Assembly: GCF_002067035.1 (NCBI RefSeq)
Contig: NZ_MVQB01000046.1
Coordinates: 124,001-188,000, forward strand
Length of the DNA stretch: 64,000 nucleotides
Source of the DNA: Methanoregula sp. PtaB.Bin085
GTDB lineage: Archaea; Halobacteriota; Methanomicrobia; Methanomicrobiales; Methanospirillaceae
Reading direction: 5' to 3'
Shown piece by piece: positions 26,567 through 46,548 of the stretch. Below the pieces are notes generated by a model. The model worked only from the letters and a program-made list of their open reading frames with translations. It did not search any database and was not told the DNA's origin. Position 1 is the stretch's first letter, and each line of letters begins with the position of its first letter. The position numbers and the translations under genes were made by a program.

Positions 26567-26679
26567 GTTTCCATAGTAGATATGCCGGGTTGGTTATTAA
26601 CGATAGTGCAGGAGGGCGATCCCGCACCATGTATCCGGCATTGCCCGCAGTCGCCGAAGGGGGTGCCTTTACGGATATG

Positions 26680-26689
26680 CATTTAAATG
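26680..26689 (+). promoter_or_regulatory. TATA box of the ferritin-like gene
   Basis: CATTTAAATG is about 55-60 bp before the ATG at 26743; with a start about 25 bases downstream, the leader of about 30 nt would carry the GAGGTGA ribosome-binding site at 26731-26737. Confidence 0.55.
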
Positions 26690-26742
26690 ATCACCTCCAT
26701 TACTGGATAGTAAGCAACCCGTATGGTACAGAGGTGAAAATC

Positions 26743-27240
26743 ATGGGAACTCTAGGACGAAAGATTGTCGGAACTGACGTGAAAGATCTCCTGACCCAGC
26801 TCAACAAGGCCTTCTCCGATGAATGGCTTGCGTACTACCAGTACTGGATCGGCTCCAAGGTTGTCAAGGGCCCGAACAAGGAGGCAGTCATCGCGGAGCT
26901 GACGCTCCATGCAACGGAAGAACTGAACCATGCGACCCTCCTGACGACCCGTATCATCCAGCTCGGGGGGACTCCGGTAACAAAACCCCAGGACTGGTAC
27001 AAGCTCACCAACTGCGGATACGATGCGCCGACCGACCCGTTCATCGTCAGGATCCTCGAACAGAACATCAAGGGTGAGCAGTGCGCTATCAAGACCTATA
27101 ATGCCCTCCTGAAGAAGACCAGGGATAAGGATCCTGTCACCTATAACATGCTCCTCACCATCCTGTCGCAGGAAGTTGAGCACGAAGAAGACCTGCAGGC
27201 GCTCCTTGAGGATGTCAAGGTCATCATGATGAACAAGTGA
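26743..27240 (+). CDS. Ferritin-like protein, possibly Dps-like thioferritin
   Basis: A 165-residue four-helix-bundle protein. Carboxylate and histidine ligands for a di-iron site appear in FSDEWLAYYQYW, HATEELNHATLL, NIKGEQCAIKTY and LSQEVEHEEDL, the order found in ferritin/Dps-like proteins. Two cysteines (NCGYD and GEQCA) could be the pair typical of Dps-like archaeal thioferritins, which remove peroxide while storing iron; that subgroup call is tentative. GAGGTGA six bases before the ATG fixes the start. Redox genes follow on the same strand. Confidence 0.82.
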   Translation: MGTLGRKIVGTDVKDLLTQLNKAFSDEWLAYYQYWIGSKVVKGPNKEAVIAELTLHATEELNHATLLTTRIIQLGGTPVTKPQDWYKLTNCGYDAPTDPFIVRILEQNIKGEQCAIKTYNALLKKTRDKDPVTYNMLLTILSQEVEHEEDLQALLEDVKVIMMNK

Positions 27241-27304
27241 TGATCGGTCCGACGGATCGCGAATTCCTGTTTCTTTTTTCATCTGGTTTCCGGCCATTAT
27301 CCCC

Positions 27305-27316
27305 GGATATAAATAC
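27305..27316 (+). promoter_or_regulatory. TATA box of the glutaredoxin-FTR operon
   Basis: GGATATAAATAC lies about 45 bp before the ATG at 27359; a GAGGAACGGG stretch between them can serve as ribosome-binding site. Confidence 0.6.
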
Positions 27317-27358
27317 TATCTGCCGCAATCACCTTTCATAGCAGAGGAACGGGTATTC

Positions 27359-27640
27359 ATGGTACTGGAACATGTTGACGGGAAGAACAGGGGAACGGTT
27401 ATGCTCTATGCACTCTCCACCTGCGGCTGGTGTGCAAAGACCAAGGATCTCCTGCGGGAGCTCGGGATAGCCTTTGATTATACCTATGTTGACCTTCTTG
27501 ATGGCGAGGAACAAAACAAAGCAATGGACCAGGTCGAGAAGTTCAACCCGAGCGGATCTTTCCCCACGCTCGTCATCGACAACCGGAAGTCCATTGTCGG
27601 TTTCAGGGAAAGGGAGATCCGGGAGGCCTTCGGTACATGA
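27359..27640 (+). CDS. Glutaredoxin-like protein (CGWC)
   Basis: A 93-residue thioredoxin-fold protein with active site Cys22-Gly-Trp-Cys25 (STCGWCAKTK), cis-proline segment SFPTLVID and C-terminal IVGFREREIREAF, close to NrdH-like redoxins and methanoredoxin. Its stop overlaps the next start (ATGA), so it is translationally coupled to the FTR-rubredoxin protein, which is the natural electron donor candidate. Together they would form a ferredoxin-linked disulfide-reducing pair; that wiring is inference from the operon. Confidence 0.9.
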   Translation: MVLEHVDGKNRGTVMLYALSTCGWCAKTKDLLRELGIAFDYTYVDLLDGEEQNKAMDQVEKFNPSGSFPTLVIDNRKSIVGFREREIREAFGT

Positions 27641-28164
27641 GCCCCGTTGAAATCAGCGAAGGGGATATCGACCGGGCTTACGCCTCCCTGAAGAAGGATG
27701 CCGCAGAAGGCGGATACCGTATCACGCCCGATACGGAATTTGCCAGGAACCTGATCCGGGGCCTCCTGAAGAATGAGGTGCGGTACGGGTACCGCGCCTG
27801 CCCCTGCCGCCTTGCATCGGGGAAGAAAGACGAGGATCTCGATATTGTCTGCCCCTGCGATTACCGGGATGCGGATATCGAGGACCACGGTGCCTGCTAC
27901 TGCGCCCTGTACGTGAACGAGGAGATCGCAGAAGGCCGACGGAAGGTATCACCCGTCCCGGAGAGGCGGCCTCCCCGTTCGCAGCGCGGTACGCCGGGGG
28001 CGCGGGCGGTACAGACTGTTTCAGCAGGCGCAACAGTCCTTGGAGGCCTTCCCCTCCCGGTCTGGCGCTGCAGGGTCTGCGGGTACCTCTGCGCACGCGA
28101 GCAGCCCCCGGGGATCTGCCCGGTCTGCAAGGCAAAGAAAGACCGGTTCGAGCGGTTCATCTGA
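27637..28164 (+). CDS. Ferredoxin:disulfide reductase, FTR catalytic domain fused to rubredoxin
   Basis: A 175-residue protein. Residues 1-95 match the catalytic subunit of ferredoxin:thioredoxin reductase: C55-P-C57, C72-P-C74 and C87-Y-C89 ligate the [4Fe-4S] cluster and form the redox disulfide. The last motif is CYC, where plant FTR has CHC. Residues about 143-168 are a rubredoxin-type iron site (C145-x2-C148, C161-x2-C164). Methanogens are known to have such FTR-rubredoxin fusions. It reduces protein disulfides with electrons from ferredoxin, probably via the overlapping glutaredoxin-like gene. Confidence 0.9.
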   Translation: MSPVEISEGDIDRAYASLKKDAAEGGYRITPDTEFARNLIRGLLKNEVRYGYRACPCRLASGKKDEDLDIVCPCDYRDADIEDHGACYCALYVNEEIAEGRRKVSPVPERRPPRSQRGTPGARAVQTVSAGATVLGGLPLPVWRCRVCGYLCAREQPPGICPVCKAKKDRFERFI

Positions 28165-28874: not shown

Positions 28875-29456
28875 TCAGGCGATCTTCTTCAGTTCCCCGG
28901 TTGCAAGATCGTAATACAGGCCGTGGACCTCGACCCGTTTCTCATCCACGGCTTTTTTCAGGAGCGGGTACGTGAAGAGGTGTTCGATCTGGAGCCTCAC
29001 ATTCTCCTGTTCGATCATCCGGTAGCGCTCGTCGGCTTCCAGAACGGTTTTCGGCGGGCTGATCCTGCTGTCAACGCGTGTTTTTGCCTCGCGGGCATTG
29101 TTCAGCCAGAGCGGGATGTAGGAGTCCGTGCTCTCCTTGTCGAGGGCACGGATTGCACCGCAGTTGGAATGGCCGCAGATGACCACGTCTTTTACTTTCA
29201 GGTGGACCACGGCATATTCAAGGACCGTGGCGAAGTTCCAGTCGTGGACCGGCACGATGTTGCCGATATTGCGCTGGATGAAGAGTTCCCCGGCCTTTGC
29301 CTGGGTGATGTGCCCGGTCTGGAGGCGGGAGTCTGAGCATCCGATCCAGAGGGTTGTTGGGTGCTGGCTTGATGCCAGTTCCCGGTAATAGTCGATATTC
29401 GGGGTAAAATCCGTCTGCCTGAACTGATAGTTACCGAGCAACAGCTTGTCGATCAC
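28875..29456 (-). CDS. Beta-class carbonic anhydrase
   Basis: A 193-residue enzyme interconverting CO2 and bicarbonate. Zinc ligands Cys40, His96 and Cys99 (GCSDSR and CGHSNCGA) and the Asp42-Arg44 dyad are present. I chose the GTG at 29456, which reads (V)IDKLLLGNYQF and has AGAGGTG about seven bases upstream; starting earlier would add about 60 unrelated residues. It converges on the small cysteine-rich gene with 9 bp between stops. Methanogens use such enzymes to supply CO2 or bicarbonate to carboxylation and methanogenesis. Confidence 0.92.
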   Translation of the reverse strand: MIDKLLLGNYQFRQTDFTPNIDYYRELASSQHPTTLWIGCSDSRLQTGHITQAKAGELFIQRNIGNIVPVHDWNFATVLEYAVVHLKVKDVVICGHSNCGAIRALDKESTDSYIPLWLNNAREAKTRVDSRISPPKTVLEADERYRMIEQENVRLQIEHLFTYPLLKKAVDEKRVEVHGLYYDLATGELKKIA

Positions 29457-29897
29457 GAAAAACACACCTCTTACCTTGTGTTTGTGCGGGGATACACGAC
29501 CGCACCCTGTATTCATCCTTGGATTCCGGTTCAAAAAACCTTTCGAAACGGTACCGGCAGCTGCGCCGTAAAGCCGGTATATGCCGGGCAGGATGCCGGG
29601 CCGGTCATCGGACGGGTATGCGCGCATAATTGAAAATGAGGCCATTTATGCTTTTTTTCATTGAATAGCGCCATTTTCAGCGGATTTTAAGATAATGGTT
29701 GCCAGAGATCTGGCGACAAACTCACGAATATTAATCGTAAGATGATTCCAGACACCTGCGATCACCAGTTTACTATATATGGATGAAGCAATAATCGTTG
29801 TAGATTGTCTTACAGACGAAGTATCATGCGATGATCTTCATGTGCTATGCAATCAGCCCTTTTCTGCTAATCCCGCGATGCCGGGCGGAGGTGCAGG
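29457..29897. other. Divergent promoter region, carbonic anhydrase and GNAT genes
   Basis: About 440 bp without a supported gene. On the plus strand TACTATATATGG (29771-29782) is a strong TATA box for the GNAT gene, leaving a leader of about 90 nt. On the minus strand GCATAAATGG near 29640-29650 could serve carbonic anhydrase, with a leader of over 150 nt. Confidence 0.5.
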
Positions 29898-30542
29898 ATG
29901 CCGACCCTGTTCATCAATGCTGATGCCGAATCGGTAAACGAGGACCAGACACTCCTGACCCTCTATGCTCTGGCAGGTGAGGAGAGCGGGGGTTTTGTCA
30001 CCTTCCGGCCGCATTTCATCCACGAGATCGGCAGGGCTTTCTTCCCTGACGGCACTGCCACAACTCCGGTTACAATAACCGGGGATGTTACCGTCCGGGA
30101 ACTCACTCCCGCCGAGATGGTGCGGGCCGAACGCGAGCTCTGGATACATTACCACCAGCAGAAGGCGGACAGGGAACACGACCGGCTCTTTGCGGTCTTC
30201 ACCGGCCCCAAGATCATCGGTGTTGCCCGGTGTGCACGGCATACCGACGGCCTCGAGGTTGACAGCGTCTACGTCCTCGAGGAGTACCGGCTTCATGGAT
30301 ATGCCCGCTCCGTCATGCGGCTCCTGATCGAGGAGTGCGGCCGGAACGAGACACTGTACATGCATTCAAAGACCGAACTGGTGGACTTCTACGGCAGTCT
30401 TGGCTTCTATGCAATCCGCGAGGCGGAGCTGCCAAAGACAATCCGCGACCGGTTCGATTTCTGCCTCGGGGAGCTCAAGGGCATTGACGTGTGTCCGATG
30501 AAGCGCGATCCCGGGTTCATCCCCAAACAGGAAAACACCTGA
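29898..30542 (+). CDS. GNAT family acetyltransferase
   Basis: A 214-residue protein. The N-terminal 60 residues are a separate small domain; residues about 65-200 are a GNAT fold: RLFAVFTGPKIIGVARC, VDSVYVLEEYRLHGYARSVMR (the acetyl-CoA loop region) and YMHSKTELVDFYGSLGFY. GGAGGTGCAGG precedes the ATG. Its closest relative in this window is the C-terminal domain of the histidine kinase at 46.5-48.5 kb: RHTDGLEVD versus RHTDGMEVD, TIRDRF versus TIRERY, and DVCPMKR versus DVQPMRR. The substrate is unknown. Confidence 0.85.
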   Translation: MPTLFINADAESVNEDQTLLTLYALAGEESGGFVTFRPHFIHEIGRAFFPDGTATTPVTITGDVTVRELTPAEMVRAERELWIHYHQQKADREHDRLFAVFTGPKIIGVARCARHTDGLEVDSVYVLEEYRLHGYARSVMRLLIEECGRNETLYMHSKTELVDFYGSLGFYAIREAELPKTIRDRFDFCLGELKGIDVCPMKRDPGFIPKQENT

Positions 30543-30658: not shown

Positions 30659-32599
30659 ATGTACACGGAAACGTTCCTTATTGCAGCGGCACTCTATGCA
30701 GCAGGATTTTCCATCCCGCTCATCTGGTGGTCCCGCGATCTGCGTGCGGTGAGGACACTCTCCCTGTCCTGCACCATCCTTGCATCGCTCCTCCTCGGTC
30801 TGGTTTCGGTCGCCGTTCTCGTCAGCGGGAATGTCATCACATTCATGATATACCGGCCGCTTGCTGAGATCTCCTTTGGTTTCTCCATCGACAGGCTCTC
30901 TGGATTCTTCCTCCTCGTCATTGCCGCGGTATCCGCACCGGTTGCCCTGTACGCGTCAGAATATTACGAACACCTTGAAGGAGGATCCAGGCGGAACCTT
31001 CTGGCAGGGTGCACGAACCTGTTCATCCTCGCGATGGTCCTCGTCGTGGCCTCGGCCGATATGCTTGGGTTTTTCTTCTTCTGGGAACTGATGGCGGCAG
31101 CATCGTTCCTGCTCGTCATGTACGAGTACGACAATCCCGGAACACGGAAGGCCGGTCTCTTCTATTTCATCATGACCCAGCTCTCGACCATGTTCGTTCT
31201 TTTCGGGATCATCGCTCTCTCATTCAGGGCAGGTTCGTTCAGATTTTCCGGTGTCGCTGTCCCCGCGGACCCGGTGGTCCTCGCAGCTTTCCTCTCCCTC
31301 TTTTTGGGATTCTCCATCAAGGCCGGCATCATACCGTTCCACAAGTGGCTCCCGTACGCCCACCCCGCGAGCCCGACACCGGTCTCGGCCCTCATGTCCG
31401 GCCTCATGCTCAAGATCGCCGTGTACGGGCTCGTGCGGTTCCTCCTAGATGTCTTCGCCCCGGATCTCTGGTGGGGCATCCTCATCCTGCTGGCAGGCGT
31501 GATCTCTGCAGTCCTCGGAGTCATCTATGCGCTCAAGGAGCACGATATCAAGGGCATGCTCGCGTACTCGAGCATCGAGAATATCGGTATCATCTTCATG
31601 GGGATCGGTCTCTTTGTCATCTTCTCGGCCGAGAGCCTCCCGCTCCTTGCCGGCATCAGCCTGCTTGCTGCGCTCTTCCACTCCCTGAACCATGCACTGT
31701 TCAAGAGCCTCCTTTTCCTGACGGCGGGTTCCGTGGTACATGCAACACATACCCGCGATATCGAACATATGGGCGGGCTTGCGTGCCATATGCCCGTGAC
31801 CTCGGCCCTCTTCTTTACCGGCTCAGTTGCCATCGCTGCCCTCCCGCCCCTGAACGGGTTTGCCAGTGAACTGCTCCTCTTCATCGCCATCTTCACGTCC
31901 ATCACCGTGGTTGATCCGCTCCTCAAGGTCCTCTTCCTTGTCTGCCTTGCCCTCTTTGCCCTGACAAGCGCCCTTGCCGCGGCCTGTTTTGTCAAGGCGT
32001 TCGGATCGGTTTTCCTTGCACTTCCCCGCTCCCCTGAAAGCGCCGGAGCTAAGGAAGTCCCGCGAATGATGCTTGCCGGCCCTGTGCTTCTCGCGCTTGC
32101 CTGCATCGTCCTCGGGCTGGGGGCGTACCAGCTCTTTGTCCTTGCCGGAATCTCCGTCCCGCTCCCCGACATGATGCTCGTCGGGCTCCTGCTTGCTGTC
32201 ATGGCAGCTCTTACGTGGACAGCCCTGTATTTCACGGCATCCCGTGCCGAACGGATCAGCGAAACATGGGGCTGCGGAGTTCACCTCCAGGAACCTTCAG
32301 CCGAGTATACCGGGCACGGTTTCTCCGAGCCCCTCGACATCATCTTCTCGTCTATCTACCGGACCCGGATCAGGAACGAGCGCGTGTTCTTCGACCAGAA
32401 GAACAGCATCTTCCGCGAGGGGACAGCCGAGATTCGTCTCATGAAGGTCTTCGAGGAGTACCTGTACCTCCCGGCCGCCCGCTTCTCGCTCGCATCCGCT
32501 ACCCGCATTGCCCGTTTCCAGAACGGCTGTCTCGACACGTACCTCCTGTATGTTTTTATCACCGTGATAGCGGTCATGGTTTTCCTGGGGTGGTCCTGA
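30659..32599 (+). CDS. HyfB-like antiporter subunit of Ehr-like membrane complex
   Basis: A 646-residue protein with about 14-16 transmembrane helices of the NuoL/Mrp antiporter family, longest in the cluster. Proton-path residues are retained: Glu in FFFWELMAAASF, Lys in SGLMLKIAVYG, and His/Lys in HSLNHALFKSLLF. The KWLPYAHPASPTPVSALMSG signature is typical of HyfB/HycC. It is the first gene of a six-gene run (30659-37832) with 1-4 bp overlaps or gaps. It should pump protons or sodium if driven by the peripheral subunits; those subunits here lack the usual metal sites (see 35709 and 37293). Confidence 0.88.
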   Translation: MYTETFLIAAALYAAGFSIPLIWWSRDLRAVRTLSLSCTILASLLLGLVSVAVLVSGNVITFMIYRPLAEISFGFSIDRLSGFFLLVIAAVSAPVALYASEYYEHLEGGSRRNLLAGCTNLFILAMVLVVASADMLGFFFFWELMAAASFLLVMYEYDNPGTRKAGLFYFIMTQLSTMFVLFGIIALSFRAGSFRFSGVAVPADPVVLAAFLSLFLGFSIKAGIIPFHKWLPYAHPASPTPVSALMSGLMLKIAVYGLVRFLLDVFAPDLWWGILILLAGVISAVLGVIYALKEHDIKGMLAYSSIENIGIIFMGIGLFVIFSAESLPLLAGISLLAALFHSLNHALFKSLLFLTAGSVVHATHTRDIEHMGGLACHMPVTSALFFTGSVAIAALPPLNGFASELLLFIAIFTSITVVDPLLKVLFLVCLALFALTSALAAACFVKAFGSVFLALPRSPESAGAKEVPRMMLAGPVLLALACIVLGLGAYQLFVLAGISVPLPDMMLVGLLLAVMAALTWTALYFTASRAERISETWGCGVHLQEPSAEYTGHGFSEPLDIIFSSIYRTRIRNERVFFDQKNSIFREGTAEIRLMKVFEEYLYLPAARFSLASATRIARFQNGCLDTYLLYVFITVIAVMVFLGWS

Positions 32600-32600
32600 A

Positions 32601-33542
32601 ATGGCACCGGATTTCGTCCTGTATATCATTTTCAATACCCTGTTTGTCCTTGCAGCAGCTCCCCTCTGGATCAGCGTGATAAAGAAGGTGAAGGCATGGA
32701 CGCAGGGGCGGCAGGGACCGTCGGTCTTCCAGACCTATTATATGGTTGCCAAACTGCTCAGAAAGGAGGTGGTGTACTCCTCCACCTCATCGCGGATCAC
32801 CCGCTTCACGCCCCTCGTGACGATGGCAGCGATACTCACGGCCGCCCTGTTCGTGCCCCTCATCTTCGTACCGGAGCCGGCAGGAGGGATCGGAAATATC
32901 ATCCTTTTCCTCTACCTGCTCGCCCTTGCCCGCTTCTTCATGGCCCTTGCCGGCCTCGATGCCGGCAGCACCTTCGGTGGTATGGGCAGTTCACGGGAGA
33001 TGAGCATCTCCGCCATTATCGAACCGACAACCATTATTGTCTTTGCCGCGCTGGCATTCGTGTTCAGGACCACAAACATCTTCGACATGTTCGCCCGTTC
33101 AGCGGCAACAGGGACCATCACGACTCCCATCCTCATCCTGATCGGGATCTCGCTCTTCATCATCCTTATCGTCGAGACATCGCGGATACCGGTCGATAAC
33201 CCGGAGACGCACCTCGAGCTGACGATGATCCACGAGGGGATGATCCTCGAGCAGTCCGGCCGGAACCTCGCGCTCATGGAACTTGCAGCCGCCGTCAAGC
33301 TGACCGTTCTCATGGCGCTCCTCATCAATCTCATCGTCCCGTTCGGTCTCGCAACGACCCTGACTGCAACCGGCCTCCTCATTGCAGCCGTCCTCTTTGT
33401 CGTCAAAGGCACGATCCTTGCCGGCATAATCGGGCTCTTTGAGTCTTCCATGGCGAAGATGCGGTTCTTCCAGCTCCCAAGCCTGTTTGCCATGGCCTTC
33501 TTCTTCTCGGCCCTCATCATCATCATCGAGGTGTTTGCATGA
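32601..33542 (+). CDS. HyfC/NuoH-like membrane anchor subunit
   Basis: A 313-residue membrane protein, about eight helices, homologous to NuoH and HycD/HyfC. The loop DNPETHLELTMIHEGMILEQS, the conserved acidic loop that faces the small subunit, is intact. This subunit normally links the peripheral arm to the antiporter modules. One base separates it from the HyfB-like stop, and its end overlaps the HyfE-like start (ATGA). Confidence 0.9.
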   Translation: MAPDFVLYIIFNTLFVLAAAPLWISVIKKVKAWTQGRQGPSVFQTYYMVAKLLRKEVVYSSTSSRITRFTPLVTMAAILTAALFVPLIFVPEPAGGIGNIILFLYLLALARFFMALAGLDAGSTFGGMGSSREMSISAIIEPTTIIVFAALAFVFRTTNIFDMFARSAATGTITTPILILIGISLFIILIVETSRIPVDNPETHLELTMIHEGMILEQSGRNLALMELAAAVKLTVLMALLINLIVPFGLATTLTATGLLIAAVLFVVKGTILAGIIGLFESSMAKMRFFQLPSLFAMAFFFSALIIIIEVFA

Positions 33543-34231
33543 TCGATACAGCCCTCGTTCAGGGAATTATCCGGATCCTGCTGGTCTGCATCATCATCAC
33601 GGCTGCGTACATCATCTCGACACGGAACCTTCTCTCGCTCGTCTCCATGTATTCGCTCCAGTCCGTGACGCTGGTCTGTCTTGCCCTGGCGCTCTGGGTC
33701 CTTGAATCTTCGCCGGTCCTTCTTGCGATCGCTGCTGTTTCACTGGTTTCAAAAGCAATTGTCATCCCCTACTTTATTGCGACGATTCAGGAGAAGATAC
33801 GGATCAGGCGCGATATCGAGTTCCATTTCCTGAGCCCGACAACGTCCCTCCTCTTCTCCATGGCGCTCATGCTCGTAGTCTATACAGTGCTCTCACACAT
33901 CCTGCGGGATATACCAGCCCGGGACAACCTCTTCTTCTTCGGGGCAGTCATCGGGATCTCGCTGATGCTGATGGGCATGATGGTGATGCTCTCCCGGAAG
34001 CGGGCGATCACCAAGGTACTGGGGTTCCTCTCGATGGAGAACGGCGTTCTGCTCTTCGGCATGTTCGTGACGGAGCTCCCGTTCATCATCGAATTTCTGA
34101 TCATCATCGACCTGATCATCCTTGTGCTCCTGACCACGATCCTGACGGTCGGGATCGATTCGACCCTCGAGGACTACCATAAGCGTCTCCACAGATTCCG
34201 CCTCGTCGGTGGGACGGAGGAACGGCCATGA
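33539..34231 (+). CDS. HyfE-like membrane subunit (NuoK-related C-terminal half)
   Basis: A 230-residue all-helical protein, about seven transmembrane helices, matching HyfE, whose C-terminal part resembles NuoK/MrpC. The charged loop RKRAITKVLGFLSMENGVLLFG contains the usual Lys/Glu pair. It overlaps genes on both sides by four bases (ATGA), which implies fixed subunit stoichiometry in one transcript. Confidence 0.88.
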   Translation: MIDTALVQGIIRILLVCIIITAAYIISTRNLLSLVSMYSLQSVTLVCLALALWVLESSPVLLAIAAVSLVSKAIVIPYFIATIQEKIRIRRDIEFHFLSPTTSLLFSMALMLVVYTVLSHILRDIPARDNLFFFGAVIGISLMLMGMMVMLSRKRAITKVLGFLSMENGVLLFGMFVTELPFIIEFLIIIDLIILVLLTTILTVGIDSTLEDYHKRLHRFRLVGGTEERP

Positions 34232-35709
34232 TCCTGCTGGGCTATATCATGGCCGCGCTGGCGGCACTTGCTGCCATCGTCCTCTCGTCCACCCACCGCC
34301 GCATGAATGCAGCCTGCATTCTCCACGCGGCCCTGACCGTGGTCCTGACCGTGTATGTCCTGCTGTTCCAGCAGGTTCCGGTTGCATCGTTCCTCATCGG
34401 CAGCCATTTCTTCTTCATGGACCGCCTGGGCCTGTATGAAGTCCTTATAGCGTCGGTGATCTTCACCTGCGCGGCAGTCTATGCCGGGGGGTACGTGGAG
34501 AGCCTGCTCTCCAGCAAGGAGCTTGACCAGGGCAGCCTGAAACTGTTCTATTCTTCGTGGACCATGCTCCTGCTTGTCCTGGTGCTGGCATTCTTCTGCG
34601 ACAACCTCGCCCTCTTCTGGATCTGCGCCGAGCTGACCACCATCCTGTCAGCCCTGCTTGTCGCGATCCTCTCGGCACGGGAGAACATCGATGCGGCGAT
34701 CAAGTATATCTTCATCGCGTCGGCCTCCATGCTCTTCTCGTTTGTCGGGCTCATCTTCCTCTTCGAGACCTCCCGGACCGTGCTCGGGACCGGTACCCTG
34801 AACTGGACGGCACTCATGCAGCACGCGTCTGCTTTCCCGGCAGGTATGGCACTTGCCGCCTTTGCTCTGGTCTTCATGGGCTTTGCCGCAAAGTCCGGCA
34901 TCTTCCCGTTCCATACCTGGCTTCCGGAGGCCCATGCAAAGGCCCCCTCGGCAGTGAGCGCTGTCCTCTCGGCGGTCCTGCTGAATGTTGGTATCTATGG
35001 CATCCTGCGGGTCTACGCCATCGTCCACCAGACAACGGCAGCGGCGACGATCGCCCCGCTCCTCGCCGTGTTCGGTTTTTTCACCGTCGGAATCGCCGCG
35101 TTCTCCATGCTGCCCCAGAAGAACCTCAAGAAACTGGTTGCATTCTCGAGTGTCGAGAACATGGGGCTCATCCTCATCGGGATCGCGGTCTCGACGCCCC
35201 TTGCCATCTTCTGGGTGCTGTTCCATATCATGGCGCATTCCCTGACCAAGGCATCGCTCTTCTTCTCGGCCGGCATCCTGCACCGGCAGTACCGGAGCAG
35301 GCTCTCGACCGATGCTGACGATGAGATCCGGGACGTGTTCCGGCTCCAGCCCCTTGCGGCGTGGGGTATTATCATCGGAGGGCTTGCCATCACCGGAATG
35401 CCCCTGTTTCCGGTCTTCTTCTCGAAACTCTTCATCCTGCGTGAGCTCGGGCAGGCATCGATGCCGGCGCTCTTCCTCCTGCTCGTTCTCCTGTTCGTCA
35501 TCGCTTCGGCTCTCGGATACTTCGTCATTGCGGCCTTCTGCCGGGTCACCGAGGCAGGTGCCTCATCCGACATCGTGCCCTACGTAACCCCGCTGACCAT
35601 GAAGATCCCGCTCGTCCTGCTCATCGGTCTCATCATCATCACCGGCGTTGTTTTCACCCGGGGAGAAACCGCGTTCTTTGAAGGGATCGTCCAGGAGCTG
35701 CGATTCTGA
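34228..35709 (+). CDS. HyfF-like antiporter subunit
   Basis: A 493-residue antiporter-type subunit with about 13-14 helices. It keeps the helix-5 Glu (LFWICAELTTILSALL) and FHTWLPEAHAKAPSAVSAV. At the helix-7 position where HyfB has Lys it reads LLNVGIYGILR, with Asn. The His/Lys helix is HIMAHSLTKASLFFSAG. With the HyfB-like protein this gives two antiporter modules. The stop overlaps the next start (TGATG). Confidence 0.88.
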   Translation: MILLGYIMAALAALAAIVLSSTHRRMNAACILHAALTVVLTVYVLLFQQVPVASFLIGSHFFFMDRLGLYEVLIASVIFTCAAVYAGGYVESLLSSKELDQGSLKLFYSSWTMLLLVLVLAFFCDNLALFWICAELTTILSALLVAILSARENIDAAIKYIFIASASMLFSFVGLIFLFETSRTVLGTGTLNWTALMQHASAFPAGMALAAFALVFMGFAAKSGIFPFHTWLPEAHAKAPSAVSAVLSAVLLNVGIYGILRVYAIVHQTTAAATIAPLLAVFGFFTVGIAAFSMLPQKNLKKLVAFSSVENMGLILIGIAVSTPLAIFWVLFHIMAHSLTKASLFFSAGILHRQYRSRLSTDADDEIRDVFRLQPLAAWGIIIGGLAITGMPLFPVFFSKLFILRELGQASMPALFLLLVLLFVIASALGYFVIAAFCRVTEAGASSDIVPYVTPLTMKIPLVLLIGLIIITGVVFTRGETAFFEGIVQELRF

Positions 35710-37289
35710 TGACACAGACACCGTATGACGGAACCTGCGGGATCCGCGAACTGCTCGGTTTTACGATTACCGATGACCGGATAACCCGTGGCCCTGCCCA
35801 TGAATATTCTGTCCGGGTGGATGAACAGGAGTACGTGCAGGCTGCAGAGAACCTTGCCCTCCACGACTTCGCTCTTGCCGCCCTTTTTGCCTGCGAAGAA
35901 TTTTCAGGTCGGGGCCGGTATTCGATCTTCTCAGTTTTCGAGAGAAAACAGGACATCCTCATCCTTGTCCGGGATGTGGACGGACATGCCGTATCGATCG
36001 CCGGCCTGTTCCCGTCAGCATGCTGGTACGAACGGGAATGCCGGGACGGTTTCGGCATCACCTTCGACGGCGCATTCGACACGCGGCGGCTGCTCCTCCA
36101 CGAGTGTTACCCCGACGGGTATCACCCGCTGAAAAAGGAGGTCCCCAACAGATCTCCGGAAATTGCAGGGGACTGGGGTCCGGAGCGCGAGTACCCCTTC
36201 AGGGTTGTCAATGGCGAGGGGGTGTACCAGGTCCCTGTCGGGCCCGTCCATGCCGGCATCATCGAGCCCGGGCATTTCCGGTTCAGCGTTATCGGCGAGA
36301 CGATCTTCAATCTCGAGGTTCGTATGTTCTACAAGCACCGCGGGATCGAGAAACTGGCGGAGGGGCGGCTGCCTGCGGACTGCCTGCCCGTTGCTGAGGC
36401 TGTCAGCGGCGACGAATCCGTAGCGAACGCAACAGCCTTCTGCATGGCAGTGGAACAGGCATCGCAGATCGCGGTTCCCGGTCGTGCATGGTACCTGCGG
36501 ACGATTCTGCTTGAACTGGAACGGATCGTCTCCCACCTCAGCGACCAGGCCGGGATGCTGGTGGATGTCGCGTTCCCGCTCGGGGCAAACCAGTTCTCGG
36601 TACTCCGGGAGGAAATCGTCCGGACCAGTGCCCGCCTGACCGGATCGCGGTTCATGCGGGGCAGGATCCGGATCGGCGGCGTATCGGAAGACATCAGCAG
36701 CGATACCCTCTCGGGGCTCGTTGTCTTCCTCACAGAGTTCAGGAAACGGTACCGGGTCGGGCTCAAGATCGTACTCTCGACCCCATCAGTCATTGATCGT
36801 TTCGCAACAACCGGTATCGTCAGGAAATCCCTGCTGCGGCCGCTGAATATCACCGGCCCGGTTGCCCGTGCTTCCGGCGGGAATAGCGATGTCCGGGTGA
36901 ACCGCCCCTACGGCATCTATGACCAGTACACCCCCCGGATCCAGCCGCTCAGCGACGGGGATGTTCTTGCGCGGTTCACGGTCAAGGCATCGGAGATCAT
37001 GGATTCGCTCGATCTCATCGAGCGGCTTGTCGCAGACATCCCCGGCGGAGAGACCTGCAGCAGCGATGCGGTCCGGGACGGGCACGCGCTCGCGGTCATA
37101 GAATCCCCCCGTGGCCAGAACCTCTGCTGGGTGAGGATCAGGGACGGCAGGATCGACCGGTACAAGGTCCGGACGGCATCGTTCTGCAACTGGCTTGCCA
37201 TCGAGCACGCGGTGCAGGGAAATATCCTCGCGGATTTCCCGGTGATCAACAAGAGCATGAACCTGTCCTATGCAGGGACGGACCTGTGA
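35709..37289 (+). CDS. HyfG-like large subunit (NuoC-NuoD fusion) without nickel-site cysteines
   Basis: A 526-residue protein: residues 1-150 resemble NuoC (the short chain fused at the N-terminus of HycE/HyfG), residues about 160-526 resemble NuoD/[NiFe] large subunits (RMFYKHRGIEKLAEGR, LLELERIVSHLSDQAG, NQFSVLREEIVRTSARLTGSR). The nickel-binding C-x2-C near the N-terminus is replaced by Ser233-Gly-Asp-Glu236 in AEAVSGDESVANAT. The C-terminal region reads FPVINKSMNLSYAGTDL with no CxxC. It therefore cannot be a conventional hydrogenase and fits the Ehr group of group 4 hydrogenase relatives. Confidence 0.87.
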   Translation: MTQTPYDGTCGIRELLGFTITDDRITRGPAHEYSVRVDEQEYVQAAENLALHDFALAALFACEEFSGRGRYSIFSVFERKQDILILVRDVDGHAVSIAGLFPSACWYERECRDGFGITFDGAFDTRRLLLHECYPDGYHPLKKEVPNRSPEIAGDWGPEREYPFRVVNGEGVYQVPVGPVHAGIIEPGHFRFSVIGETIFNLEVRMFYKHRGIEKLAEGRLPADCLPVAEAVSGDESVANATAFCMAVEQASQIAVPGRAWYLRTILLELERIVSHLSDQAGMLVDVAFPLGANQFSVLREEIVRTSARLTGSRFMRGRIRIGGVSEDISSDTLSGLVVFLTEFRKRYRVGLKIVLSTPSVIDRFATTGIVRKSLLRPLNITGPVARASGGNSDVRVNRPYGIYDQYTPRIQPLSDGDVLARFTVKASEIMDSLDLIERLVADIPGGETCSSDAVRDGHALAVIESPRGQNLCWVRIRDGRIDRYKVRTASFCNWLAIEHAVQGNILADFPVINKSMNLSYAGTDL

Positions 37290-37292
37290 GGG

Positions 37293-37832
37293 ATGACGAT
37301 GGTGAACGCACTGACCTGTCTTATCCGGAAAAAAGTGACCGGCGACTCCCCGGTGACCGATGAAGAAGTTGAAGCCATCGGCCGCGAACTCCGGTGCAGC
37401 ATCGACAAGGTGTTCGGCCACAGCCTTGCGATCCGCGAGCTCGACACCGGCAGTGACAACGCGACCGAGATCGAGATCAATGCCCTGAACAACCCGTTCT
37501 ACGACGTGGAACGGTTCGGCATCTCCTTTGTTGCATCCCCCCGCCACGCGGACGTGCTCCTGGTCACCGGTGCGGTCACCCATAACATGGCCCTTGCAGC
37601 CCGGAAAACATACGAAGCGATGCCAGCCCCACGGTTTGTTATTGCAGTCGGGGACGATGCCTGCACGGGCGGGATATATGCGGGGACATACGCTGTTCTC
37701 GGAGGTGCGGACAAACTCTTTCCCGTGGACCTGAAGATCCCCGGGAACCCCCCGTCCCCCAAAGAGATCCTTGCCGGCCTGCTCGCCCTGATGAAACGGG
37801 CGGAGGCAGACCGCAACCGGCGGTTTTTCTGA
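37293..37832 (+). CDS. HyfI/NuoB-like small subunit lacking all Fe-S cluster ligands
   Basis: A 179-residue protein clearly homologous to HycG/HyfI/NuoB: TEIEINALNNPFYDVERFGI, SPRHADVLLVTGAVTHNM, and PVDLKIPGNPPSP. Every cysteine expected to hold the proximal [4Fe-4S] cluster is replaced: Thr52, Asp55 and Thr58 in the first motif (DTGSDNATEIEI), Asp122 at the third site, and Asn152 in the last (GNPP where GCPP is normal). An unaligned Cys124 remains two residues away. The fold and the docking surface appear kept, the electron-transfer centre does not. It is the last gene of the six-gene cluster and there is no ferredoxin-like subunit gene beside it. Confidence 0.88.
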   Translation: MTMVNALTCLIRKKVTGDSPVTDEEVEAIGRELRCSIDKVFGHSLAIRELDTGSDNATEIEINALNNPFYDVERFGISFVASPRHADVLLVTGAVTHNMALAARKTYEAMPAPRFVIAVGDDACTGGIYAGTYAVLGGADKLFPVDLKIPGNPPSPKEILAGLLALMKRAEADRNRRFF

Positions 37833-37889: not shown

Positions 37890-38675
37890 ATGAGAACGGT
37901 CCGGAAATGGGGGCATGGACCCTATACCGTTGCAGTCATCCACGGCGGCCCGGGAGCGCCGGGCGAGATGGCGCCGGTTGCACGCGAACTCTCGGCCTTC
38001 ACCGGTGTGATCGAGCCGTTCCAGACAGAGGTGACCCTTGACGGCCAGGTACAGGAGCTCCGCCAGGATCTTGAGCAGGATGCACAGGTACCGGCAGTTC
38101 TTGTCGGGTTCTCGTGGGGTGCTTTCCTGTCGTGGCTGACTGCCGCACGGTACCCTCACCTTGTGCGAAAACTGATTCTCGTCTCCAGCGCACCGTTCGA
38201 GGAATCCTATGCAGCGACCATAACGCGGACCCGGCTCGACCGCATGAATGCCGCAGAACGTATGGAAACAAAAAGCCTGATGGCGCAGATTGACGACCCG
38301 GACGTATCGGACAAGGATACGATCCTTGCACGGCTGTCCCTCCTCCTCGCCAAGGCAGATGCCTGTGACCCGATATCCTATGTTGACGAGACCTTCCACA
38401 CTCAATCCGGTGTCTTCCGCGGTGTCTGGGACCAGGCGGGAGATCTGCGAAAGAAGGGTGTTTTACTCCAGATGGCGCATGCCATCCGGTGCCCGGTTGT
38501 TGCGATCCACGGGGATTATGACCCTCACCCGGCGAAGGGTGTGGAAGAGCCGCTCTCCCGTGCATGTCCGGATTTCCGGTTCTGCCTTCTGGAAAAGTGC
38601 GGCCACCGGCCCTGGATAGAACGGGAGGCATCGGACACCTTTTATGAGATCCTGATCCGGGAGATCAAGGAATGA
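37890..38675 (+). CDS. Alpha/beta hydrolase, proline iminopeptidase-like
   Basis: A 261-residue hydrolase. Oxyanion-hole HGGPG (residues 18-22), nucleophile elbow GFSWG with Ser75, Asp in HGDYDPHP and His in KCGHRPW complete a catalytic triad. The HGGPG motif is common in proline iminopeptidases and related esterases, but a specific substrate cannot be assigned. It has its own leaderless promoter and converges on the Mut7-C gene. Confidence 0.88.
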   Translation: MRTVRKWGHGPYTVAVIHGGPGAPGEMAPVARELSAFTGVIEPFQTEVTLDGQVQELRQDLEQDAQVPAVLVGFSWGAFLSWLTAARYPHLVRKLILVSSAPFEESYAATITRTRLDRMNAAERMETKSLMAQIDDPDVSDKDTILARLSLLLAKADACDPISYVDETFHTQSGVFRGVWDQAGDLRKKGVLLQMAHAIRCPVVAIHGDYDPHPAKGVEEPLSRACPDFRFCLLEKCGHRPWIEREASDTFYEILIREIKE

Positions 38676-42819: not shown

Positions 42820-43851
42820 TCAGTACCCGACGATTACGCGCACAACGGCAAACGAGGCATAGCCGATTGCGGCGCTGATCGGGATCGTAAGGATCCATGC
42901 CCACATGATGTTCCGGGCAACGCCCCACTTCACCGTGCTCGAACCCATGGTTGTGCCGACTCCCATGATGGATGTGCAGATGATGTGGGTCGTGCTCACA
43001 GGTATCCCCGCGATCGATGCCCCGAGAATTGTCGTTGCACCCGCGGTCTCTGCTGCAAACCCGTGGACCGGGCGCAGCCTGGTGATCTTGTATCCCATGG
43101 TCTTCACGATCCTCCAGCCGCCCGACAGCGTGCCGAGTGCGATTGCCGTATAGGAAACAAGCACCACCCACATGGGGACCGGAAGGTGGTTGGGATCCAC
43201 CGATGCCCCGAAATACCCGATGGAAAAAAGGAGCGGGAGAATGATCCCCATCGTCTTCTGTGCATCGTTTGTGCCGTGACTGAAGCTGTACGCTGCCGCT
43301 GAACAGAGCTGAAGTCTTTTGAAGTAAATCTCCGCAGACTGCTTGTTCGCCATCCGCGTCAGCCAGAGAACCGCTGCCATGAAGAGGAATCCGCAGATGA
43401 GCCCGATGACCGGTGAAACGAACATGAACGTCACGACAAGGATTATCGTCTCCATCTTGATGGCTGCAAGTCCGGCAGCGGAGATGCCGGCGCCTGCAAG
43501 ACCGCCGATCAGTGCGTGGGAGGAAGATGTTGGCAGGCCGAAGAACCAGGTTATCAGGTTCCAAAGAATCGCACCCAGGAGTGCACTGAGGATGATATAA
43601 GGGACAACGGCAGTCTGGACAACGTCAAGGTGTATGATCTTGCTCACCGTGCTTGCTACAGCAACACCGAATCCGAAGGCGGCGATGAAGTTGAAGAATG
43701 CCGCGAAGAAGACCGCATTCCGTGGCGAGAGAACCTTGGTCGAAACAACGGTCGAGATGGAATTGGCCGAATCGTGGAATCCGTTCGTGAAGTCAAAGAC
43801 AAGCGCTATTCCGATGATGACGATAATGAGTTCCCATGTCGCTTCGATCAT
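42820..43851 (-). CDS. pit: Inorganic phosphate transporter, PiT family (first copy)
   Basis: A 343-residue membrane protein with about ten helices and the duplicated PiT signatures: FDFTNGFHDSANSISTVVST in the first half and YSFSHGTNDAQKTMGI in the second. LPTSSSHALIGGLAG and PVSTTHIICTS are the re-entrant loop motifs. PiT proteins import phosphate with protons or sodium. It is downstream of a DUF47 gene, a common archaeal and bacterial pairing, and a second DUF47-PiT pair lies directly upstream. Confidence 0.93.
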   Translation of the reverse strand: MIEATWELIIVIIGIALVFDFTNGFHDSANSISTVVSTKVLSPRNAVFFAAFFNFIAAFGFGVAVASTVSKIIHLDVVQTAVVPYIILSALLGAILWNLITWFFGLPTSSSHALIGGLAGAGISAAGLAAIKMETIILVVTFMFVSPVIGLICGFLFMAAVLWLTRMANKQSAEIYFKRLQLCSAAAYSFSHGTNDAQKTMGIILPLLFSIGYFGASVDPNHLPVPMWVVLVSYTAIALGTLSGGWRIVKTMGYKITRLRPVHGFAAETAGATTILGASIAGIPVSTTHIICTSIMGVGTTMGSSTVKWGVARNIMWAWILTIPISAAIGYASFAVVRVIVGY

Positions 43852-43882
43852 GCTGTCATCTCACCGGATCCCAGGAAGACCG

Positions 43883-44512
43883 TCACGAGTGCCGGATCGC
43901 AATATCGGACAGCACGTTTGCCACGTCCTCGCAATAGTCCGTTGCGCTCTCAAGATGTTCGTAAATATCCTTGTATTTGATAATAGCAATAGCGTCGGTT
44001 GTCCTGAACAGGTCGGTGACTGCATGGGCGAGGACGTCGTCGGCAAGGTTCTCGAGCCGGTTCACCTCGATACAACGCTCTTCCACGTAGCGCGGGTCCT
44101 TGATCGATCGGATGCCTTTGACCGCGCTCTCGATCTCCACGGTGGACATGTGGATGAGTTTTGCCAGTTCGATCATGTGCGAATCGGTGCTGCTGATGCC
44201 GTAATAGAACATCTTCTCGGTTGCTCCGTCGATATAGTCCAGCACCTCGTCCATTGCTGAAGCGAGGCGGGAGATCTCCTCGGGATCGAGCGGCGTGATG
44301 AACGTGCTGTTCAGCTGTTCGTAGATGTCATGGGTGATCTGGTCTCCCTTATGCTCGAGCTTCTCAATCTCGTGGCGCTTCTCCTTGACATTGGTGAAAT
44401 CCTCGGTCAGCGCCACGAGCTGCCATGCCGCCTCCTTCACAATGCCGGCCTGCTTCTCGAACATGTCGAAAAAAACCTTGTCCTGCGGTATCAGCAATTC
44501 CCGGAGACCCAT
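43883..44512 (-). CDS. DUF47 (PhoU-like) phosphate transport accessory protein, first copy
   Basis: A 209-residue all-helical protein of the DUF47/PhoU-like family: MGLRELLIPQDKVFFDMFE, then EKLEHKGDQITHDIYEQL and TPLDPEEISRLASAMDEVLD, metal-binding E/D-rich helices. Such proteins sit beside PiT genes and are thought to regulate phosphate uptake. It has the same length as its paralogue at 45757-46386, about half the residues being related by eye, so the pair arose by duplication. Confidence 0.9.
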   Translation of the reverse strand: MGLRELLIPQDKVFFDMFEKQAGIVKEAAWQLVALTEDFTNVKEKRHEIEKLEHKGDQITHDIYEQLNSTFITPLDPEEISRLASAMDEVLDYIDGATEKMFYYGISSTDSHMIELAKLIHMSTVEIESAVKGIRSIKDPRYVEERCIEVNRLENLADDVLAHAVTDLFRTTDAIAIIKYKDIYEHLESATDYCEDVANVLSDIAIRHS

Positions 44513-44569
44513 AACAAACCCACCGGTAATCAGCAGCAGGTCATAAAAACATAGCGAAATTGCGTCCGG

Positions 44570-45760
44570 CTACAGGAGCACGAGAAATAAATCCACGGTG
44601 TAATACATGACAAATGCAACGACAACCGCAAGAGGGATGGTGATGATCCATGCCGTCACCATCTCCTGCACGACCCTCCACTGGACGGCGCTCTTCCCCC
44701 GTGTCGCTCCTACGCCGACAATCGCGCCGTTGATGGAATGCGTTGAAGAGACCGGTATCCCCCAGTGCGTCACTGCGGCGAGGATCGCGCTGCTTGCCGT
44801 TGCTGCGCAGAATCCCTGGTACGGGCGGATCTTCGTGATCTCCCGTGCCATCTTGTCCACGACCCGCCACCCCCCGAAACAGGTGCCAAGGCCGATGGCA
44901 ATCGCCGATGAGAGGAGAACCCAGTCGGGCACGGCAAACGTGAGGAGGAACCCGGATGAGACCAGCAGTGCCGTGATCACCCCGACCGCATGCTGGCCGT
45001 CGTTGGCACCATGGGCTGTCGCCTGGATGAGGCACGCGAGCACGTGCAGGGGCTGGAAGATCCTCCGCATCCGGTTCCTCCGGGAATGGCGGAAGAGGTG
45101 GGAGACGATGACATCGAAGACGAAAGCGCCCACCATGCCGATAACAGGCGAAATGAAGATGAAGAGGACGATGGCCAGAAGCCCGCTCAGCTGCACAAGG
45201 CCAAGGAGCATCATTATGGGGATGACCAGCGATGCCCCGCAGAGGGCGCCGAGCATCGCCCCGAATCGTGCGTCCTCGTGGAACGATGCCGTGAAAAGGC
45301 CGAGGGCGATTGCCCCGATCACCGCGCCGGCGATACCGTACACCACGACTTCAGTGACGCTCCCCCACGAGGGCATGATGATGACGGAGAGGCCGGCGAC
45401 TGCCATCCCGGCACCGAGCAGGCCGCCCACCATCGCGTGGCTGCTCGAGATCGGGATGCCGGAACGGGTGGCGACAAAGACGAGCATGATTGCTGTACCC
45501 ATGGCAACGGTGATGGAAAGGGGAGTCAGGCCGGCATGACCGATGACGGCGGTCCCGATGGTGGCGGCAACTGCCGTGGTGAAAAGGTACGGACCGGCAA
45601 GGTTGCAGAGCGCGGTCAGGAGCACAGCCTTTGCAGGGGAGAGCGCCTTCGTTGCGACAACGGTGGCAATCGAATGCGATGCATCGTTGAGGCCGTTGAC
45701 GAAGTTCAGGGCAAGAGCGAGGATGATACCGAAAAGGATGATTGGTTCAATGCCGGTCAT
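44570..45760 (-). CDS. pit: Inorganic phosphate transporter, PiT family (second copy)
   Basis: A 396-residue PiT transporter, longer than the first copy. Motifs: FVNGLNDASHSIATVVATK, IPISSSHAMVGGLLG, ATAHGANDGQHAVGV and IPVSSTHSINGAIVG. It overlaps the upstream DUF47 stop by four bases (ATGA in the reverse strand), whereas the first PiT/DUF47 pair has a gap of 31 bp. Divergence suggests an old duplication with possible specialisation. Confidence 0.92.
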   Translation of the reverse strand: MTGIEPIILFGIILALALNFVNGLNDASHSIATVVATKALSPAKAVLLTALCNLAGPYLFTTAVAATIGTAVIGHAGLTPLSITVAMGTAIMLVFVATRSGIPISSSHAMVGGLLGAGMAVAGLSVIIMPSWGSVTEVVVYGIAGAVIGAIALGLFTASFHEDARFGAMLGALCGASLVIPIMMLLGLVQLSGLLAIVLFIFISPVIGMVGAFVFDVIVSHLFRHSRRNRMRRIFQPLHVLACLIQATAHGANDGQHAVGVITALLVSSGFLLTFAVPDWVLLSSAIAIGLGTCFGGWRVVDKMAREITKIRPYQGFCAATASSAILAAVTHWGIPVSSTHSINGAIVGVGATRGKSAVQWRVVQEMVTAWIITIPLAVVVAFVMYYTVDLFLVLL

Positions 45761-46386
45761 GCATGTGCCTTGGCAATGTCACCGAGTGCATGACCGACGT
45801 CATTGCATTTCTCCATGACCTTTGCCATTCCCTCGTAGATATCCTTGAGCTTGATGATCATGAGCAGGTCTTTTGTCTTGAAGAGTTCGAGGATCGCCCG
45901 CGACAGGAGCTCGGTCGAGAGGTTGTACAGCCGGCTGATCTCGGTGACATGGGATCTGACCTCTTCCGGTTGTGTCAGGGCGGCGAGGTTCTTGGTAGCC
46001 AGGGAAATCTCGGCGGATGCCAGGAGGATGAGGTAGGAGTATTCCTTGAGCACGTCGTTTGTCTCGGGGATCCCGTAGTTGCAGAGCTGGTGGGTGACCC
46101 AGTCAAGCCTGTCCAAAACATCGTCGAGCACGGGGGCGAGCCGTGCGATCTCCTCAGGTTCGAGCGGCGTGATGAGTGACTCATCGAGATGTTCGAAGAC
46201 CTTCCGCGTAATCTCGTCGCCATGGTGCTCGATCTGGCGGACTCTGTGGGCTTTCTCCGTGCCTCCGGGAAGTTCGTGGGTGATCTCGTTCAGCGTCGTG
46301 GCCGCTTCTGAAATGTTATCAGCCATCTCCACGAACAGGGTGAAAAAAACCCGGTCTTCCGGCAGGATAAGGTCGCGGATGCGCAT
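45757..46386 (-). CDS. DUF47 (PhoU-like) phosphate transport accessory protein, second copy
   Basis: A 209-residue protein starting MRIRDLILPEDRVFFTLFVE, parallel to the first copy, with IEHHGDEITRKVFEHL and TPLEPEEIARLAPVLDDVLD. The start at 46386 is chosen because it gives the same length and N-terminus as the paralogue; an in-frame upstream extension has no family match. It heads the four-gene run DUF47-pit-DUF47-pit. Confidence 0.9.
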   Translation of the reverse strand: MRIRDLILPEDRVFFTLFVEMADNISEAATTLNEITHELPGGTEKAHRVRQIEHHGDEITRKVFEHLDESLITPLEPEEIARLAPVLDDVLDRLDWVTHQLCNYGIPETNDVLKEYSYLILLASAEISLATKNLAALTQPEEVRSHVTEISRLYNLSTELLSRAILELFKTKDLLMIIKLKDIYEGMAKVMEKCNDVGHALGDIAKAHA

Positions 46387-46548
46387 GGTATGTGAGTGAT
46401 CTCTGTGGGATGGTAATAAAGAATACGTTGCAGGTATTTCGTATCCTCTTTCCTGACAATAATTTTCTGAATCCTGACAATCAGAACGATTGGTTTTTAC
46501 TCGCGGGAACACATGGCGGAAGGGCGATTCGTCGTCTGAAACAGCCGG

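Follow-up and report, generated by a model that had tools for sequence, protein, structure and literature searches.

The window analyzed here is a 64,000-nucleotide stretch of the Methanoregula sp. PtaB.Bin085 genome (contig NZ_MVQB01000046.1, positions 124,001 to 188,000), in which six contiguous open reading frames (ORFs) on the forward strand, at positions 30659–37832, encode an Ehr-like membrane complex. Because the ORFs are spaced by gaps or overlaps of only 1–4 bases, they read as one operon, referred to below as ehr. The source genome (G000; 2.9 Mb, 98% complete) contains mcrA and is thus that of a methanogen. Pfam and NCBIfam searches assigned the six proteins to Proton_antipo_M (two proteins), NADHdh, a HyfE-like family, Complex1_30kDa+49kDa and Oxidored_q6, and the nearest solved structures for the large and small subunits were HycE and HycG of E. 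coli formate hydrogenlyase (7z0s). Position, strand and families all agreed with a first-pass annotation of the stretch, which had described HyfB-, HyfC-, HyfE-, HyfF-, HyfG- and HyfI-like genes. The genes are as follows.

30659–32599, + strand: ehrA, HyfB/NuoL-like antiporter-type membrane subunit, 646 aa (PF00361, 9.5e-60; NF006418, 894 bits, above cut-off)
32601–33542, + strand: ehrB, HyfC/NuoH-like membrane subunit, 313 aa (PF00146, 3.8e-33)
33539–34231, + strand: ehrC, HyfE-like membrane subunit, 230 aa (NF008556, 5.8e-16, below cut-off)
34228–35709, + strand: ehrD, HyfF/NuoM-like antiporter-type membrane subunit, 493 aa (PF00361, 7.5e-47; NF006427, 651 bits, above cut-off)
35709–37289, + strand: ehrL, HyfG/HycE/NuoCD-like large subunit without Ni-Fe cysteines, 526 aa (PF00346, PF00329; 7z0s_E, 1.2e-64)
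37293–37832, + strand: ehrS, HyfI/HycG/NuoB-like small subunit without proximal [4Fe-4S] ligands, 179 aa (PF01058, 4.2e-26; 7z0s_G, 1.2e-30)

Both metal sites are gone from this complex, which cannot be a hydrogenase. In EhrL, the RxCGxC motif is replaced by A-V-S233-G-D-E236-S and the C-terminal CxxC by S520-Y-A-G523 (LSYAGTD, residues 519–525); neither of the two Ni-Fe-binding CxxC motifs of group 4 [NiFe] hydrogenases is present, and the alignment bore out the earlier reading of the nickel motif as SGDE (233–236) with no C-terminal CxxC. In EhrS, the four proximal-cluster ligand positions align with D55, T58, D122 and N152. The first-pass annotation had counted residue 52 as a fifth replaced ligand; HyfI/HycG have Cys at this position, but Mbh and Ech paralogues from the source genome or related genomes have T or A there and still bear the cluster, so we rejected it as a ligand, while the claim stood for the other four. 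The ferredoxin motif CX2CX2CX3C was found in the small subunit of 9 of 19 full hydrogenase relatives versus none of 70 cluster-less ones. Within the six-gene operon, neither the ORFs nor the Pfam assignments revealed a ferredoxin-like, flavin or F420 subunit, the first of these absences having been noted before. The overall description, an Ehr-like complex devoid of both the nickel site and the Fe-S ligands, holds.

The same replacements are found well beyond this genome. Orthologues of EhrS with 70–82% identity occur in 24 of the 36 genomes of the genus, the source genome counted; across the class, 44 of 232 genomes have an EhrL orthologue (E < 1e-130). The cysteine losses are common to 45 related copies (41 other Methanomicrobiales loci and four more; one of the 41 aligned Methanomicrobiales loci has the last site unread), which read D55, T/A58, D/E122 and N152 in the small subunit, and the SGDE (S233-G234-D235-E236) and LSYAGTD motifs of EhrL are fixed among orthologues. 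Because they recur in all scorable orthologues, the replacements are more than chance. Close orthologues that retain the cysteines had been named as the sign of a decaying copy; every close orthologue lacks them. The ratio of nonsynonymous to synonymous substitution rates (dN/dS) between close pairs ranged from 0.03 to 0.28 across the six genes, and EhrL and EhrS are kept at 67–82% identity with invariant motifs. Purifying selection maintains all six genes.

The membrane arm retains the Lys, Glu and His residues of a complex I-type proton path. EhrA keeps E143, K221, H228, H235, K298, H345, K349, E404 and K446 in common with HyfB, and EhrD keeps E135, K159, K222, H229, R261 and K341 in common with HyfF; K72 and E167 are conserved in EhrC, and E141, D199 and E206 of EhrB correspond to E157, D213 and E220 of NuoH. 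The earlier impression that the ion-pumping subunits look complete was thus supported, and we infer that translocation of H+ or Na+ by the complex does not involve redox chemistry.

Comparison with known systems places the complex within Ehr and sets it apart from the rest. It shares subunit architecture and its best sequence matches with formate hydrogenlyase and hydrogenase-4 (Hyc, Hyf; group 4 [NiFe]), but lacks their Ni site, proximal cluster and HyfH-type ferredoxin subunit. With respiratory complex I (NDH-1; NuoB/CD/H/L/M) it has in common the NuoH-type acids, the antiporter Lys/Glu residues and a NuoB-/NuoCD-like junction, but neither the N2 cluster nor an NADH or F420H2 input module. 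Like the Mrp Na+/H+ antiporter, it combines antiporter-type subunits with the lack of a redox module; the MrpA–G set is not matched, the operon having NuoH-, HyfE-, NuoCD- and NuoB-like subunits, and we know of no Mrp with NuoH-, NuoB- or NuoCD-type subunits. The Pmh operon of Methanospirillum hungatei has the same subunit set and a large subunit likewise without Ni-Fe cysteines. Hyf/Ech-type subunits and loss of the Ni-Fe motif are both found here, as in Ehr. Classical Ehr keeps C-C-C-C in the small subunit, in contrast to D-T-D-N in EhrS, a distinction that comes from our alignments and does not appear in the accessible part of the published definition.

Relatives gathered by scanning named genomes with the EhrL alignment fell into three grades: full hydrogenases, with CCCC in both the large and the small subunit; classical Ehr, in which the Ni cysteines are lost and the small subunit keeps CCCC; and complexes without either set. 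The last grade includes Methanosarcina (loci L125 and L127), Micrarchaeota, several lineages of the candidate phyla radiation (CPR) and metagenome-assembled genomes (MAGs) labeled Altiarchaeales and Dehalococcoidales (L124, L126). Gene order in CPR is S-A-B-C-D-L. The former ligand positions of the small subunit read D-T/A-D/E-N in methanogens, mostly S/P-V-G-N in Micrarchaeota, and T/S-E-G-N/D or T/D-C/E-D-D/N in CPR, and no metal-binding set is conserved at them across these three groups. Because the residues differ among clades and are often unable to bind metal, a hidden metal cofactor at the old cluster site is unlikely, as far as sequence can tell. In a quick tree of the large subunit with HyfG as the root, the full hydrogenases are the first to diverge, which places nickel loss before cluster loss. 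The cluster-less rows form three clades on this tree; three independent losses were not upheld, as a one-clade tree had slightly better likelihood (approximately unbiased test, p 0.7), and a single origin is just as possible as up to three. On one contig of the Altiarchaeales-labeled MAG (L124:4940-20900), two ehrABCD sets are separated by about 4 kb, and within the available stretch large- and small-subunit genes follow only the first.

What might drive such a complex is suggested by its neighbors. Three genes flank the operon in the window.

28875–29645, − strand: beta-carbonic anhydrase (CA), divergent from GNAT-ehr, the proposed functional partner (PF00484, 2e-49)
29898–30542, + strand: GNAT-type acetyltransferase, 116 bases upstream of ehrA, a possible accessory gene (PF00583, 4.5e-10)
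37890–38675, + strand: alpha/beta-hydrolase (PF00561, 4.1e-11; at 19 orthologous loci), a neighbor in the genus and probably outside the complex

The start of the CA ORF is a mechanical call, and the conserved protein begins near 29459. CA adjoins ehr at 20 of 42 orthologous methanogen loci, in arrangements that vary. In the genus of the source genome and those close to it, CA is divergent with GNAT in between; in g25 it lies immediately upstream, in one or the other orientation; and in L108 and L110 it is convergent and immediately downstream. The GNAT gene is present at 18 orthologous loci and overlaps or directly adjoins ehrA in L070 and L104–L106. Upstream of CA, at 26590–28164, lie ferritin-like, glutaredoxin-like and rubredoxin-tailed genes whose order is conserved at many related loci, whether or not ehr is present.

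CA-family genes, one or more, also occur at 7 of the 10 loci of the Micrarchaeota phylum. The first family is recognized by Pro_CA at L213 (7.5e-8, above cut-off), with weaker matches at L216 and L212. The second adjoins the complex at L148 (twice), L213, L214 and L219 and has no Pfam CA match; its AlphaFold2 (AF2) model, with a predicted local distance difference test score (pLDDT) of 77, had as its best fold matches 1ddz, a two-domain beta-CA (Z 13.9, 266 residues), and CsoSCA (Z 11.9), and we identify this family (e.g., L148:3395-4615), from the modeled fold alone, as a putative two-domain beta-CA. For a third family (L212, L213, L215), hhalign gave an alignment to beta-CA with E 4.9e-5 and a probability of 68%. 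Among 196 genomes of the phylum, the two larger CA-like families are found in 6 of 10 with the complex versus 9 of 186 without it (p 1e-5, kinship ignored), and in complex-bearing genomes every copy of these two families sits at the complex.

In CPR, a Pro_CA_2 protein (1.9e-12) directly follows the large subunit at L158, and no second gene of this kind was found in that genome; the CsoSCA-type matches at L153 and L206 are weak. Aligning the CA-like proteins of L158, L207/L205 and L218 to true CA by hhalign gave no signal; L205, L207 and L218 were excluded from all CA counts and L158 was counted by its Pfam match. A small CxDxR protein at L207 was modeled by AF2 with a pLDDT of 34, and the model was not used. 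The small-subunit gene, first in the CPR operon, directly follows the F1Fo ATP synthase genes atpG-atpD-atpC in the MAGs L153, L158 and L178, and ATP synthase genes lie near the complex in L205 (one gene between), L174 (an unread stretch between) and L189. CitMHS/ArsB-type permeases adjoin the cluster-less complex in two distant genomes (L178:12046-13317 and L124:3512-4744).

Judged by gene neighborhood, the complex may be tied to CO2/bicarbonate chemistry, and the recurrence of CA beside cluster-less complexes in methanogens, Micrarchaeota and CPR suggests an energy source other than electrons. We tentatively favor, at somewhat less than even confidence, a redox-cofactor-free Ehr subfamily in which ion translocation proceeds without electron transfer and is coupled to CO2/bicarbonate chemistry through a beta-CA partner. 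The membrane arm of NuoL-, NuoM-, NuoH- and HyfE-like subunits would be capped by a NuoCD/NuoB-like module with no remaining role in electron transport; the former cluster and nickel sites may serve as a conformational or proton relay towards the NuoH-like subunit instead of in redox; and the coupled step would be CO2 hydration or bicarbonate handling by the beta-CA partner, with the ion gradient driving it or the reverse. Such a complex would be a multi-subunit analogue of DAB2, described below. Extending this to one widespread redox-less complex I-type machine in methanogens, Micrarchaeota and CPR, in which beta-CA partners would link an ion gradient with CO2 hydration or the use of bicarbonate, is a more doubtful proposition.

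Several observations weigh against a partnership with CA. At 22 of the 42 methanogen loci, and likewise at the Methanosarcina loci, there is no CA neighbor, and most loci of a second CPR clade have none. CA is near-universal in the order, which makes its co-occurrence with the complex in the class uninformative. Genomes of the genus without ehr keep CA at the same site, adjoining the alpha/beta-hydrolase, and where ehr has moved, CA remains with GNAT, which weakens adjacency in Methanoregula-type genomes as proof of partnership. In Micrarchaeota without ehr, the matching site holds a true beta-CA together with the third CA-like family. Since CA genes persist without the complex, they do not depend on it, and the linkage is evidence of a common context and not of contact. 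In favor of a partnership, profiles run against every ORF outside Methanomicrobiales detected beta-CA at 5 of the 28 loci that lack the cluster and at 0 of the 59 that bear it (p 0.003, kinship ignored), but these profiles were built in part from cluster-less loci and so favor them.

The main rival is that the complex is a plain antiporter in the service of pH balance and of ATP synthase, and we regard it as a serious though not a leading possibility. It would be a redox-free Na+/H+ antiporter, Mrp-like in effect, with EhrL and EhrS as a structural cap or gate, serving pH or ion homeostasis or H+/Na+ gradients linked to ATP synthase, and CA would belong to a shared pH/CO2 gene island. The antiporter-type subunits with their conserved Lys/Glu/His, the CPR copies directly after or near ATP synthase genes and the persistence of CA without ehr all fit. 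A mere cap, however, should not hold EhrL and EhrS at such identity with invariant motifs, and CA-family genes at the loci of several distant lineages would be left unexplained.

A different non-redox reaction, such as GNAT or alpha/beta-hydrolase chemistry or a regulatory ligand in the old active site, might drive or gate the pump. GNAT does adjoin or overlap ehrA in several families, yet both GNAT and the hydrolase are missing at Methanospirillum-like (a tentative name), g39, Micrarchaeota and CPR loci, and we consider this explanation improbable. Slightly less probable still is continued redox chemistry by way of a hidden cofactor or a mobile carrier (flavin, F420, thiol or metal) in a cavity of the large and small subunits. 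The strong conservation of the soluble module and Cys124 of EhrS, invariant in methanogen orthologues, speak for it, and classical Ehr, with its cluster intact, has a function still called unknown in 2025 (PMC12342949); against it, Cys124 and the polar former ligands are lost in Micrarchaeota and CPR, replacements such as S-V-G-N are unable to hold a metal cluster, and the operon lacks any subunit for ferredoxin, flavin or F420. Of the three ideas raised in the first-pass annotation, the unseen cofactor is thus weakened, given the lack of a conserved metal-binding set at the former ligands, and an antiporter scaffold and another energy input remain. The CA and ATP synthase genes on which the neighborhood argument draws are located beyond the coordinates that the first-pass annotation had covered. 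Decay of a hydrogenase operon, to which its absence from about one third of the congeners searched might point, was rejected with near certainty because the frames are full-length, each of the six genes has a dN/dS well under 1 and dozens of species show the same replacements.

Part of this picture is known. Missing nickel cysteines were noted in 2009 for the M. hungatei Pmh operon (Mhun_1817-1822) and its Methanosarcina homologues (PMC2686161) and in 2020 for CPR Ehr (PMC7304191). For the additional cluster loss, and for a link between Ehr and a CA or ATP synthase neighborhood, we found no published description in a search that largely left out subscription literature, including the original Ehr papers; within that scope, the cluster loss and the CA neighborhood appear to be new. 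A likeness in idea only is offered by DAB2 (DabA2B2) of Halothiobacillus, in which, as its solved structure shows, a NuoL-like proton channel is paired with a beta-CA-like subunit, without redox (PMC13144422). Unlike ehr, DAB2 consists of just two subunits and lacks NuoH/B/CD parts; with ehr, a separate, ordinary CA gene lies nearby in some relatives only. Pfam and NCBIfam detected no PF10070 (DabA) protein in the ehr operon, and the adjacent CA is PF00484; a beta-CA-fold gene adjoins the operon of the NuoL-like gene in the source genome and several lineages, not everywhere, and CA persists where ehr is absent.

How electron transfer is coupled to distant ion pumping is a central open question of complex I. 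A natural relative that has the whole pump and the NuoB/NuoCD/NuoH junction but shows no electron carrier would set coupling apart from redox, so that the coupling element could be studied alone. If the favored coupling to CO2/bicarbonate chemistry is true, it would give Ehr complexes a testable role and provide a candidate CO2 or pH energy system for methanogens and for small-genome CPR and DPANN microbes.

Further downstream in the window, on the reverse strand at 42820–46512, two tandem gene pairs resemble, as judged by eye, a Pit-type phosphate permease and a PhoU-like regulator.

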